A stretch of 7,409 bases of DNA, from assembly GCA_003661385.1 (NCBI GenBank), contig QMWA01000087.1, positions 1-7,409 on the forward strand. Direction: 5' to 3'. This document shows, in pieces, positions 2,527 through 7,409 of the stretch. Every line of letters begins with the position of its first letter. The first letter of the stretch is position 1. The stretch is from Thermoproteota archaeon. Lineage in GTDB: Archaea > Korarchaeota > Korarchaeia > B14-G2. Position numbers and translations under genes: made by a program. The notes beneath the pieces are model-generated. The model searched no databases. It had not been told where the DNA came from and was given only the letters and a program-made list of their open reading frames with translations.

Positions 2527-3100
2527 ATGCTCAGAGCCGCAGATGAGAAGCTTCTTAACCTCATGAAGAAGGTGTTTGTGGAGAGTGAAGCTGAGGGGCC
2601 ACCCGTCTCCTCTGCTTGCGGGAGGCTTCTCTACACCCTAGCTCACCTAGCCTCTCGATCGTCAGCTAGCCCTGCCATCCTAGAGGTTGGAGATGGCTAC
2701 GGCTTCTCAACACTATGGCTTGCACCAGCTTTAGCAGATGAGGGAGTAGATGGGAATGTTTACTCCATGGAAGCCGGTGAGAGGAGCAGAGAAGGCGCTT
2801 GAGAACCTGAAGCAGGCCTAGCAGGCTACATGGAGGTAGTACCAAGGGCTGCTATAAGAGGCCTCCGCCTGCTACTTGACTTAGCTTTCATAGACGGGAG
2901 AAAAGAGGAGTACAGCGCCTACCTAAAGCTCCCATCAGCGAAGCTCAAGAGGGGGGAGTGCTGCTGGCTCATAGCGTGATAGCACCACACCCACATGAGC
3001 TAGCAGGCTTCCTCAGGGAGGTAACGGAAACACGCAGCTGGATAATGGTAATGCTGCCAGTTGACCCAGGGGTATAAGCCTGTCAATTAAAGTCTACTGA
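2527..3100 (+). pseudogene. Broken class I SAM-dependent O-methyltransferase
   Basis: Joining several frames reads as one small SAM-dependent methyltransferase of the O-methyltransferase type. Frame one (2527 to about 2785) gives AILEVGDGYGFSTLWLA, the Rossmann SAM-binding motif. Frame two (about 2786-2811) gives AEKALENLK. Back in frame one (2812 to about 2955) come AGLAGYMEVV and DLAFIDGRKEEY. Frame three (about 2956-3070) gives VLLAHSVIAPHPHELAGFL and VMLPVDPG. Frame two (3071-3100) ends in GISLSIKVY before TGA. The pieces are in the right order, with no large gap, so about four single- or double-base indels have accumulated; the longest intact reading frame ends at 2802 after 91 residues. 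No frame can make a full protein. The former substrate is unknown. It lies divergently between hutU and hutH, but nothing ties it to histidine metabolism. Sequencing error is unlikely because the genes on both sides are intact. Confidence 0.85.
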
Positions 3101-3161: not shown

Positions 3162-4961
3162 TTAGTCAGCTAGCTTTCCTCTTGCTGCATCTAGGATCTC
3201 AGGGAGTGTCTCCCTTACTCTAATGATGTCCCTGCTGTAGGGGCGGTCTTCTCTTATCGGGAGGCCTAGCAGCTCCCCTATGTAGCTGTACGCTGCCTTA
3301 GTGCCTGCTCCAAGGCAGCTTTCGCTCAGCCCTGCTGCCTCTAGCCTCAGCGATATAGCCTGGGATGCGTTTAGCAGCTCTATTGCCAGCACTGTCTTCG
3401 TGTTCTCTAGGATCTTCCTGGCTTTCAAGGCTGCCGTCATGCTCATGCTCACGTGGTCCTCCTGGTTGGCTGACGTTGGTATCGTGTCTGCTGAGGCAGG
3501 GTGTGCTAGCACCTTGCTCTCTGAGGCCAAGGCTGCTGCAGTGTACTGCGTTATCATGAGGCCAGTCTTCAGGCCGCTGCCCTCTATGAGGAATGGCGGC
3601 AGACCCCTGTTTAAGGCTGGATCCAACAGCCTGAACACTCTCCTCTCTGATATCAAGCTCACGTATGTCAGGGCTATTGCCAGGGTGTCCAAGGCCAAAG
3701 CTAAGGGCTGTCCATGGAAGTTTGCTCCAGAAAGAACCTCCCTGCTATCTGGCATGATCACCGGGTTGTCGCTCACAGAGTTTATCTCAACCTCGACTAT
3801 CCTCCTAGCAAAGGATAAGGCTTCTCTCAGCGCTCCATGCACAACAGGAGCACACCTTATCGAGTAAGCATCCTGCACCCTGCCTAGCTCAGCTCTTGTG
3901 AAGTCCATCTCTGAGAGAAGCTCTCTGGCCTCGCTTACAGGGCACACGAGCCCTAGGCTGTACTTTCCTTCAGCATGCGCCCTGATGCCGGTCTTTAGGG
4001 TGATGGCTTCAGCTAGCTGAGCTGAGCTCACACCTAAAGCTGAGAGTAGCCTCGAGCTCAACCTCACCCTGGTGCCTTCAGGTGAGCCTTCAAGCTCAAC
4101 GAGCTCAGCTAGGCTAAGCCCCATTTCCCTCAACATGGGCTTTGAGCTTGAGCCTACAAGGCAGCTTCCCGCCAAGAAGGCTCTAGCCAGCTTAGCGCTC
4201 TCAGCCTGCCCCCTATGTGGCCTCAGCTCGTGAAGCCTGCTGTTAAGTGGGTCAGTTGAGCAGAGGAGGGCCTCCATGGTCATCGCCAGCGCCAGGTCAG
4301 CTAGCTCAGCTACAGCCTGCCCTTCATGGATCAGAAGGCAAGCTAGCCCTGCTGTAGCTGGCGTCCCATTGTTTAGTGCAAGCCCCTCCTTGTAGCTGAG
4401 CTCGAGAGGCCCACCCAGTTCCCTTAAAGCCTTCTTGAGCTCCTCTCCCCTGACTCTCCTCCCCCTCCAGTAGGCTTCCCCCTCACCCATGAGCGCCAGC
4501 GCCATGTGAGATAAGGGAGCCAGGTCTCCGCTTGCCCCAACAGACCCCTTCTCAGGGACAACTGGAACCAAGTCCCTGTTGAGGGCCTCAGCCAAAAGCT
4601 CTAGCACACGGTACCTCACACCAGAGTACCCTTTAGCCAGAGTGTTCAGCCTCACTAGCATCATAGCTCGAACAGCTTCCTTAGGAAGCTCCCGTCCCAC
4701 GCCAGTAGAGTGGCTGAGAATCAGATTCCTCTGCAGCAGGCAAGCCTCCCTAGGGCTTACTCTATGTGATGCCAGCGCCCCAAACCCAGTAGTAACCCCA
4801 TAGACTACAGCACCGCTTTCAGTAAGCTCGACAATAGCCCTCCTAGCTTCCTCCACCCTCTCCTGGACTCCAATAGCGATCTCAACCCTAGCTTTCCCAA
4901 AAGCAACCTCAGCAACATCATCAACAGTCAAGCTTGAGCCATCCACAAGCACAGCCCTCAA
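3162..4961 (-). CDS. hutH: Histidine ammonia-lyase (histidase) with an extra internal segment
   Basis: HutH removes ammonia from L-histidine to give urocanate, opening the Hut pathway. Numbering is from the longest frame (GTG at 4988, 608 residues). The Ala-Ser-Gly triplet that cyclises to the MIO electrophile is A152-S153-G154 within GSVGASGDLAPLSHM. Other active-site positions are Y63 (VVYGVTTGFG), N207 (LALNNGT), Q372, Y375 and R378 (VQDAYSIRC), F424 (NFHGQP) and E510 (SANQEDHVSM). All expected catalytic residues are present. Histidases are usually about 500-510 residues; here about 85 extra residues (roughly 283-368) separate LAGS from VQDAYS. I prefer the TTG at 4961 (599 residues) because GGTGGT lies three bases before it and TTATAA lies 34 bases upstream; the GTG at 4988 would sit almost on the TATA box. 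It shares strand and pathway with hutU. Because of the insertion, phenylalanine or tyrosine lyase or aminomutase activity is an outside alternative. Confidence 0.95.
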   Translation of the reverse strand: MRAVLVDGSSLTVDDVAEVAFGKARVEIAIGVQERVEEARRAIVELTESGAVVYGVTTGFGALASHRVSPREACLLQRNLILSHSTGVGRELPKEAVRAMMLVRLNTLAKGYSGVRYRVLELLAEALNRDLVPVVPEKGSVGASGDLAPLSHMALALMGEGEAYWRGRRVRGEELKKALRELGGPLELSYKEGLALNNGTPATAGLACLLIHEGQAVAELADLALAMTMEALLCSTDPLNSRLHELRPHRGQAESAKLARAFLAGSCLVGSSSKPMLREMGLSLAELVELEGSPEGTRVRLSSRLLSALGVSSAQLAEAITLKTGIRAHAEGKYSLGLVCPVSEARELLSEMDFTRAELGRVQDAYSIRCAPVVHGALREALSFARRIVEVEINSVSDNPVIMPDSREVLSGANFHGQPLALALDTLAIALTYVSLISERRVFRLLDPALNRGLPPFLIEGSGLKTGLMITQYTAAALASESKVLAHPASADTIPTSANQEDHVSMSMTAALKARKILENTKTVLAIELLNASQAISLRLEAAGLSESCLGAGTKAAYSYIGELLGLPIREDRPYSRDIIRVRETLPEILDAARGKLAD

Positions 4962-4991
4962 AACACCACCAGAAGCCGCTGATAGCACACC

Positions 4992-5363: not shown

Positions 5364-5380
5364 AGAAAACATTTTAATTT
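5364..5380 (+). promoter_or_regulatory. Probable promoter (BRE/TATA) of tRNA-His
   Basis: AGAAAACATTTTAATTT is the most AT-rich block for hundreds of bases. A purine-rich BRE-like part comes first, then a TATA-like part centred near 5375, about 29 bases before the first tRNA base. Confidence 0.5.
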
Positions 5381-5403: not shown

Positions 5404-5491
5404 GGCCGGGGTGAGGTAGCCTGGTTAGCCTGGGGGCCTGTGGAGCCCCAAGCCCGGGTTCAAGACAGTGGAGGAAGTCCCGGCCCCGGCC
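5404..5491 (+). tRNA. tRNA-His (anticodon GTG) with a 13-base intron in the T loop
   Basis: This is the histidine tRNA. The acceptor stem GCCGGGG (5405-5411) pairs fully with CCCCGGC (5484-5490). An encoded G at 5404 pairs with C at 5491, the G-1:C73 identity pair of tRNA-His. The D stem is AGGT/GCCT with loop AGCCTGGTTA. The anticodon stem GGGGC/GCCCC (5433-5437/5445-5449) encloses loop CTGTGGA with GTG at 5440-5442. The variable loop is AAGC. The T stem CCGGG (5454-5458) is followed by TTCAAG, then 13 extra bases (5465-5477), then T and CCCGG. Removing the 13 bases restores a perfect seven-base T loop, TTCAAGT. CCA is not encoded. All stems pair, so the gene looks functional provided the insert is spliced out. 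Confidence 0.95.
5465..5477 (+). other. Non-canonical tRNA intron (about position 59/60)
   Basis: The sequence ACAGTGGAGGAAG interrupts the T loop. AAG occurs on both sides, so the cut could be placed up to three bases earlier with the same product. The 59/60 register best fits a relaxed bulge-helix-bulge. The outer helix is the T stem. The bulges AG|A and AG|T are each cut after the second base. Between them T54-A and C56-G pair, T55-G is a wobble and A57 faces A. The intron's own inner helix is minimal. Archaeal splicing endonucleases of the broad-specificity heteromeric type process such sites; that enzyme is not in this window. Confidence 0.8.
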
Positions 5492-5713: not shown

Positions 5714-5818
5714 GTGGTTTTGAGGATCATTAAGGGAGGGAGAATAGGTAAGATGAGAAGCCGCAAGGTGTATAGAGTTGGTCGTAAGGGTAAAGCTGAA
5801 GATCAAGGCAGGAGATAA
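5714..5818 (+). CDS. Possible small basic protein, 34 residues
   Basis: This frame opens directly behind the TATA box. It starts at GTG 5714, or at TTG 5720 with GGGGTGG just ahead, and stops at TAA 5816-5818. It encodes a strongly basic peptide whose central part reads IIKGGRIGKMRSRKVYRV, which could bind nucleic acid. It overlaps the retropepsin-like frame by 41 bases. I do not recognise a family. It could be a leader peptide, a small partner of the next gene, or a chance frame within that gene's leader. The promoter placement is the main evidence for it; there is no conserved motif. Confidence 0.3.
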   Translation: MVLRIIKGGRIGKMRSRKVYRVGRKGKAEDQGRR

Positions 5819-6200
5819 GGGTGCTATCACATCTGCCCTAGTTAACAGCGGATTTGAGGCTATGGAGCCTCAGCTAATCATCCCACTTAGGCTAGCTGAG
5901 CGCCTGAACTTCACCTCAATGGAAGCTGACATCGAGGACTTCGATGTTGCTGGTGGAAGCAGGGCATCAGGGTACAGAGTCAAGGGGAAGTTTGAGGTTG
6001 AGCTTGTTCTCAGAGACCGGCCACCTGTCAGGTCTCTGGCTTCCATCACAATACTACCTGGAGAAAGAGAGGTCATAATCAGCGACTACCTCGCTTCAGC
6101 TCTCCAGATAGTGATATTAGATCCACAGGCTGGAGTTTGGTGCCTAAGAGACGAACTAGGGGCAGCGCAGAGGCCTAGTGTCTCAGCTGAGGAGTGGTAG
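5778..6200 (+). CDS. Retropepsin-like (clan AA) domain protein, catalytic Asp replaced
   Basis: The 140-residue product looks like one retropepsin-type beta-barrel, about the size of a half aspartic protease. After a short first strand, ALVNSGFEA (residues 20-28) stands where active proteases have D-[ST]-G, so the catalytic Asp is Asn (N23). Then follow a LRLAERL helix, a flap-like VAGGSRASGYRV near 57-68, and near the C-terminus a block like the second conserved hydrophobic-Gly region: REVIISDYLASALQIVILD, then GVWCLRDE. No signal peptide or membrane segment is seen, so it is probably cytoplasmic. The TTG start is supported by AAGGTG at 5765-5770, seven bases ahead. It probably shares a transcript with the small basic ORF upstream. 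With Asn at the key position it may be inactive as a protease, or belong to a family with another role. The fold assignment is by motif pattern only. Confidence 0.7.
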   Translation: MVVRVKLKIKAGDKGAITSALVNSGFEAMEPQLIIPLRLAERLNFTSMEADIEDFDVAGGSRASGYRVKGKFEVELVLRDRPPVRSLASITILPGEREVIISDYLASALQIVILDPQAGVWCLRDELGAAQRPSVSAEEW

Positions 6201-6367: not shown

Positions 6368-6521
6368 ATGCTATCAGCTTCCATGAAGAGGCTTCTCCTG
6401 GCTGCAGCTGCTGTCTGTTCAGGAGGTTTTCGCGTTCATAGCTGGTAGAGGATGCCAGAAGCGTCTCCTGATCATGGAAGCATTACCTTCTGGAGGTGTA
6501 TGCTTTGAGCAGGAGGTTTAG
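6368..6521 (+). pseudogene. Decayed reading frame ahead of hisS, possibly a JAMM/MPN-domain remnant
   Basis: Two overlapping frames join into a plausible protein start. From ATG 6368 (or 6383) the first frame gives MKRLLLAAAAV and then runs to a TAG at 6446-6448. A shift near 6411-6420 continues as LSVQEVFAFIAGRG, CQKRLLIMEALPSGG and stops at TAG 6519-6521, inside the hisS start region. A helix with LLxAA, then P/xE-hydrophobic-hydrophobic-G-x-G and a strand ending in a conserved Pro, resembles the first part of archaeal JAMM (Mov34/MPN) proteins. The metal-binding HxH...D part is absent, so no active enzyme could be made. The family call is a weak inference; the broken and truncated state is clear only if that call is right. 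Otherwise this is simply the hisS leader. Confidence 0.3.
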
Positions 6522-7409
6522 GCTTCCACGTGGGACTAGAGACTTTGCTCCAGAGGAGATGGCTAAGCGCAGCTACGCTGAAAGGCTGATCAGAAGGGTC
6601 TTTGAGAGGTACGGCTTCCAGCAGGTTCAGACTCCGATCTTCGAGACCTTCGCGCTGTTCGCCTTGAGGTCTGGTGAGGAGATAAGGAGCAAGATGTTCG
6701 TCTTCACAGTAGACGGGGAGGAGATGGTATTGAGGCCGGAGGTCACGGCAGCAGTATGCAGGATGATCTCCATGGGCGAGCTCGACTTGTCCAAGAAGCC
6801 TCTCCGCCTCTACTACGTAGGGCAGTGCTACCGCTATGAGGAGCCTCAGGCAGGCAGGTACAGGGAGTTCTGGCAGGCTGGAGTAGAGCTGATGGGCTCA
6901 CCTAACCCTGAGGCTGACGCTGAGGTCATAGCGCTTGCTGTAGACGTGATAAGGGAGCTTGGCATAAAGGGCTTTGAGCTCAGGGTTGGTGACATGCGTG
7001 TGATAAGAGGGCTCCTCAGCGACTCAGGTGTCCCAGAGGAGGCTCAGAACAGGGTGATAGGCCCCCTGGATGTGCTGGGCAGCAGCGTAGACAAGCTCAC
7101 GCTCTACGTTGACAGGCTCAAGAGCGGCGGGGAGCTTACTGAAGAGGAGCTAGCTGACCTCAGCAGGAGGCTTGACGACCTCAGGCTCTGGAAGGAGGAG
7201 GAGTATAGGAGGATGGCCTCTGGAGAGAGCAAGCTGCCACCTAGCCTAGAGCCTCTCCTGGAGGTCGACCCCAGGGTTTACACGGTGAAGGAGCTCTACA
7301 AAAGCGGCAGGAGAGGAGAGCTAGCTGAGCTCGTCGAGAACTCAATCAGAGACCTCAAGGAGGCCCAGAAGGCAAGGTGGGTCTACTACGGCATAGAGTA
7401 CGAGGAGAA
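6505..7409 (+). CDS. hisS: Histidyl-tRNA synthetase, 3' end beyond the window
   Basis: HisRS is a class II synthetase that charges tRNA-His with histidine using ATP in the cytoplasm. The 301 residues seen contain the N-terminal LPRGTRDFAPEEM (7-19), the motif 1 helix and YGFQQVQTPIFE (36-47), LRPEVTAAVCRM (76-87), and motif 2 as CYRYEEPQAGRYREFWQAG (108-126). The second half of the visible part is the archaeal-type insertion region. The RGLDYYTG histidine-binding motif, motif 3 and the anticodon-binding domain must lie past 7409. I chose TTG at 6505 because GGAGG at 6492-6496 is eight bases ahead and the protein then begins a few residues before the conserved LPRGTRDF. An ATG at 6500 is out of frame and meets a stop at once, and GTG at 6496 overlaps the ribosome site. 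The intact RYEEPQAGRYREF motif argues against the HisZ paralogue. It is partial only because the window ends. Confidence 0.95.
   Translation, partial: MSRRFRLPRGTRDFAPEEMAKRSYAERLIRRVFERYGFQQVQTPIFETFALFALRSGEEIRSKMFVFTVDGEEMVLRPEVTAAVCRMISMGELDLSKKPLRLYYVGQCYRYEEPQAGRYREFWQAGVELMGSPNPEADAEVIALAVDVIRELGIKGFELRVGDMRVIRGLLSDSGVPEEAQNRVIGPLDVLGSSVDKLTLYVDRLKSGGELTEEELADLSRRLDDLRLWKEEEYRRMASGESKLPPSLEPLLEVDPRVYTVKELYKSGRRGELAELVENSIRDLKEAQKARWVYYGIEYEE

Follow-up and report, generated by a model that had tools for sequence, protein, structure and literature searches.

A putative tRNA-His gene with a 13-nt T-loop intron at position 59/60 in a korarchaeal genome

The window analysed here (the whole stretch of DNA, 7,409 nt) contains, at positions 5404-5491, a tRNA-His-like locus with an insert in its T loop, which raises the question of whether this is a functional gene carrying an intron and, if so, where the intron would be cut and by which enzyme. 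The reading that we favour, and hold with high confidence, takes the locus for a functional tRNA-His(GUG) gene whose short bulge-helix-bulge intron lies at position 59/60 and would be cut by a fused splicing endonuclease encoded in the same genome.

Structure of the tRNA-His locus

The predicted elements of the locus and the basis for each are as follows.

5373..5380 (+): TATA-box-like TTTAATTT, ending 24 bases upstream of G-1
5404..5491 (+): tRNA-His(GUG) precursor gene, G-1 to C73 (sequence; top hit of the tRNA-His model genome-wide, 91.9 bits)
5404..5464 (+): 5' exon (pairing in the sequence, alignment with relatives, cut register from eight introns)
5404 (+): G-1 (sequence)
5405-5411 with 5484-5490 (+): acceptor stem (base pairing in the sequence)
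5414-5417 with 5428-5431 (+): D stem (base pairing in the sequence)
5433-5437 with 5445-5449 (+): anticodon stem (base pairing in the sequence)
5440..5442 (+): anticodon GTG (sequence)
5454-5458 with 5479-5483 (+): T stem (base pairing in the sequence)
up to 5464 (+): T54-G59, the end of the 5' exon (sequence, cut register)
5465..5477 (+): 13-nt intron ACAGTGGAGGAAG at position 59/60 (bulge-helix-bulge register also seen in seven further T-loop introns of this genome)
5478..5491 (+): 3' exon, comprising T60, the T-stem 3' strand (5479-5483), the acceptor 3' strand (5484-5490) and C73 (sequence)
5491 (+): C73 (sequence)

As it stands, the T loop is 20 nt long (TTCAAGACAGTGGAGGAAGT) compared to the standard 7. 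Removal of 13 nt leaves the loop TTCAAGT on a 5-bp T stem (T arm CCGGGTTCAARTCCCGG), and the resulting 75-nt tRNA aligns column by column with the intact tRNA-His of relatives, a return to standard form that is the hallmark of an archaeal bulge-helix-bulge intron. Both marks of tRNA-His identity, the GUG anticodon and the G-1:C73 pair, are present in the gene. A preliminary description had proposed this 13-base intron, the restoration of an intact T arm by its excision, the pairing of all other stems and the encoded G-1:C73; each of these agrees with the base pairing read at 5404-5491 and with the relatives' genes. Judged from its sequence, we identify the locus as a predicted tRNA-His(GUG) gene with a noncanonical archaeal intron in the T loop. 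The tRNA elbow needs a 7-nt T loop with a UUCRA core, and we give next to no credence to a tRNA-His that retains the insert and functions with a 20-nt T loop, given that the spliced sequence agrees with relatives and that a splicing endonuclease is encoded in the genome.

Upstream, TTTAATTT may act as the promoter of tRNA-His; nowhere else does the window match TTTAAWTT exactly, while matches with ≤1 mismatch are no commoner than chance. Scans for bacterial-type promoters and terminators found none, as expected for an archaeal host. The host genome also encodes a Thg1 homologue, though G-1 is already gene-encoded here; G at -1 is not encoded in the tRNA-His genes of several relatives.

Detection of tRNA-His in the host genome

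A tRNA-His covariance model was built from six sequences (the spliced window gene and five relatives) and searched against the whole genome. The best match was 5404-5491 (91.9 bits, E = 2.6e-13), a score that is partly by construction since the spliced form is in the model, and for which the relatives' intact genes provide the independent support; the runner-up was a tRNA-Asp(GTC) at 83.9 bits. A second tRNA-His, which the preliminary description had suggested looking for, was not found by covariance-model and DNA searches of the host assembly (206 contigs, about 91% complete). The locus is thus apparently the only tRNA-His of the genome, a conclusion that is strong but, at this completeness, not final.

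General-purpose tools passed over the gene, as the preliminary description had anticipated: ARAGORN reported no tRNA in the window, and none at the locus with its intron option either; cmscan against Rfam listed no tRNA at E values up to 1; and a genome search with the Rfam tRNA model returned 28 matches that did not include 5404-5491. Common gene finders would call tRNA-His missing in such genomes, biasing tRNA counts and completeness estimates.

A common splice register in eight tRNA genes

Individual reading of the tRNA loci of the genome revealed T-loop inserts of 12-29 nt at one site in at least eight genes, namely tRNA-His and the following seven.

tRNA-Thr(GGT), contig C25: T-loop insert
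tRNA-Asn, contig C179: T-loop insert
tRNA-Ala(TGC), contig C126: T-loop insert
elongator tRNA-Met, contig C25: T-loop insert
initiator tRNA-Met, contig C20: T-loop insert
tRNA-Phe, contig C2: T-loop insert
tRNA-Trp, contig C49: T-loop insert

With a cut at 59/60, all eight follow one rule: UUCR (54-57) pairs with four bases near the intron 3' end, and the 3-nt bulges consist of 58-59 plus the first intron base on one side and the last two intron bases plus U60 on the other. UUC pairs in 8/8 introns and the total reaches 30 of 32 pairs, compared to a mean of 14.6 for shuffled introns, of which 0 in 50,000 reached 30. The 4-bp central helix is complete in six of the eight. The same register was found in another family of the phylum (f4), where three T-loop introns in the Lys and Thr tRNAs of two genomes form 12/12 pairs. 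Across five aligned precursors, from two of which other introns were removed by hand, 98.4% of named cells pair, versus ≤51% when the partners are slid. Single-sequence folding of the tRNA-His precursor gave a different minimum that was no better than shuffled sequence (z = -0.42).

The tRNA-His motif itself is relaxed, as the preliminary description had noted in calling its bulge-helix-bulge imperfect: an A x A mismatch at the fourth central position leaves three of four pairs, and a proper inner helix is lacking, so the arrangement of two 3-nt bulges around a 4-bp helix is found in relaxed form only. Because the register is common to eight introns of the genome, we place the predicted splice sites at 5464/5465 and 5477/5478, corresponding to position 59/60, a known site of archaeal tRNA introns (PMC4090602). 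The preliminary description had regarded the cut as ambiguous owing to an AAG direct repeat, and it is true that four cuts give the same mature RNA; only 59/60, however, fits the register of all eight introns. A cut one to three bases leftward (56/57, 57/58 or 58/59) would leave the mature RNA unchanged, and at 58/59 tRNA-His also gets three pairs, but we consider such a shift improbable: among six introns tested, 57/58 and 58/59 gave fewer pairs than 59/60 except for the 58/59 tie in tRNA-His, with 58/59 giving just 1-2 pairs in the five sister introns, and the alternative also has to contend with 59/60 being an established archaeal site (PMC4090602).

The shared register also bears on whether the locus could be a decayed pseudogene hit by a chance insertion, while an intact tRNA-His lies outside the assembly. 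Such decay would suit both the completeness of about 91% and the lack of a T-loop insert in tRNA-His of the main korarchaeal family. Against this, the stems, G-1:C73 and anticodon are all intact, no other tRNA-His emerged from any search, and the insert is not a chance event, since seven more tRNA genes of the genome carry one at exactly this site and follow the same rule of exon-intron pairing. We therefore regard a pseudogene as very improbable, and retain the intron-bearing functional gene as the preferred reading.

Several of these genes appear to be interrupted more than once. The initiator tRNA-Met (G000:C20:4315-4463) seems to have three introns, one in the anticodon loop, one within the T stem and one of 29 nt in the T loop that contains a 9-bp hairpin, and tRNA-Phe(GAA) (G000:C2:11175-11300) has a seeming intron at about 30/31 besides that at 59/60. 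In archaeal tRNA-Trp, 37/38 is commonly the site of a box C/D intron; tRNA-Trp(CCA) of this genome (G000:C49:6360-6500) has D-arm and T-loop inserts and nothing at 37/38.

A fused splicing endonuclease

The preliminary description had suggested looking for a heteromeric splicing endonuclease. Instead, the host genome has one fused two-domain protein and no separate alpha and beta subunits: matches to PF01974 are confined to a single 367-aa protein in which the domain occurs twice. Two matches per genome within one open frame were likewise found in all 24 genomes searched of the main korarchaeal family and in families f4 and f5 of the phylum. The host enzyme is 37-44% identical to ten other korarchaeal members, and its most similar records include Candidatus Methanodesulfokora washburnensis and other assemblies, all of which we take to be Korarchaeota.

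Over residues 187-366, a profile of the family is closest to 3p1z_B, the catalytic subunit of the Aeropyrum pernix endonuclease (E = 7e-50), which outscores any fused euryarchaeal enzyme. In the C-terminal half, K222-P223-K224 aligns with K44-P45-R46 of Aeropyrum pernix, which are Crenarchaea-specific loop residues important for activity (PMC12397907), and the invariant Y306, H314 and K345 would fit the catalytic triad. Two endonuclease units in one chain and a loop lysine in the catalytic half, the defining features of the korarchaeal fused type, are thus both found, and the enzyme, presumably a homodimer, appears to be of a kind that can cleave relaxed motifs. The present case fits a homodimeric alpha2 enzyme with a specific loop, which Fujishima 2011, as cited in PMC4033280, proposed for Korarchaeota; Korarchaeum cryptofilum is there recorded as the only archaeon to combine an alpha2 enzyme with non-canonical tRNA introns (PMC4033280).

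With this proposed korarchaeal alpha2 endonuclease the host protein shares a single fused two-domain chain, a K-P-K/R motif in the catalytic half and non-canonical introns in the genome; it differs in that its 367-aa chain comes from a separate family-level lineage. The Archaeoglobus-type alpha'2 enzyme also has two units in one chain and is a presumed homodimer; however, it has no specific loop and is regarded as mostly confined to canonical motifs (PMC12397907, PMC6379350), whereas the host enzyme has the loop motif.

Under the preferred reading, the tRNA-His gene would be transcribed and its precursor cleaved and ligated. The T stem (CCGGG/CCCGG) would form the outer helix, with UUC of the T loop (54-56) paired to GGA near the intron 3' end. 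The 3-nt bulges AGA and AGU would each be cut after the second nucleotide by the fused, presumably homodimeric endonuclease, whose Crenarchaea-specific-type loop should enable it to handle this relaxed motif. Cuts at 59/60 would release ACAGUGGAGGAAG, and exon joining would give the T loop UUCAAGU.

Origin of the T-loop intron

A genome search placed the host in class Korarchaeia, as the sole member of its family among the genomes searched. In the main korarchaeal family, tRNA-His is uninterrupted in G002, which we take to be Korarchaeum cryptofilum, and in the other genomes where it was found (genera g2, g3, g4 and g6); it is also uninterrupted in G026, from another family of the phylum. Searching the relatives for the His anticodon-arm pattern gave noisy results, yet led to two genomes of genus g5 in which tRNA-His has an insert in the anticodon loop and none in the T loop (L226, G014:C31:22200-22600; L261, G017:C162:3300-3600). 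Because the relatives' tRNA-His lacks a T-loop intron, the window's lineage probably gained this intron itself.

Intron load of the host tRNA set

Overall, 36 of 41 readable host tRNA loci (about 88%) are at least 9 nt above the length expected for their class, a length criterion rather than a formal intron census, with the Ser/Leu class assigned by eye. Introns occur on average in about 15% of archaeal tRNA genes and about 48% of those in Crenarchaeota (PMC4090602), with 0.84 introns per tRNA gene in Thermoproteales (PMC8450103). Archaeal tRNA introns span 11-129 nt with medians mostly of 12-25 (PMC4090602), so the 13-nt length given in the preliminary description holds, and its placement near the short end is refined to a size within the common range. 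Judged on tRNA lengths, introns look far more abundant in the host than in the main korarchaeal family, for which the tRNA matches listed, a selection favouring short, high-scoring loci, measure 72-76 nt.

The introns resemble the 59/60 introns of Crenarchaeota, notably Thermoproteales, in site, size class and bulge-helix-bulge or relaxed motif, and in often lying alongside other introns in one tRNA (PMC4090602); they differ in that the host is korarchaeal, tRNA-His is among the genes affected and the site recurs within a single genome, in eight or more of its tRNA genes. Introns at 59/60 have been published, as has this type of korarchaeal enzyme, so the tRNA-His intron adds one more case of a known type, and the intron-saturated tRNA set is of more interest than this single intron. 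We lean towards the view that the tRNA set of this lineage is among the most interrupted known, with about 88% of loci carrying extra sequence, at least eight T-loop introns at 59/60, a three-intron initiator tRNA-Met, a tRNA-Trp interrupted in its D arm and T loop rather than at 37/38, and one fused endonuclease with a crenarchaeal-type loop serving all. Such a set offers a natural test, outside Thermoproteales and with a fused enzyme, of whether endonuclease loop and intron spread evolve together.

Neighbouring genes

Elsewhere in the window, a seemingly broken methyltransferase-type gene lies at 2527-3080 (+), where a 91-aa ORF without a Pfam match is followed by related-looking sequence in other frames, and a 140-aa ORF without a Pfam match (5778-6200, +) lies between tRNA-His and the histidyl-tRNA synthetase. 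The window also holds a cluster of histidine-related genes, comprising urocanase (718-2469, -), a histidine ammonia-lyase-type aromatic amino acid lyase (3162-4988, -), tRNA-His (5404-5491, +) and the start of histidyl-tRNA synthetase (6496-7409, +).
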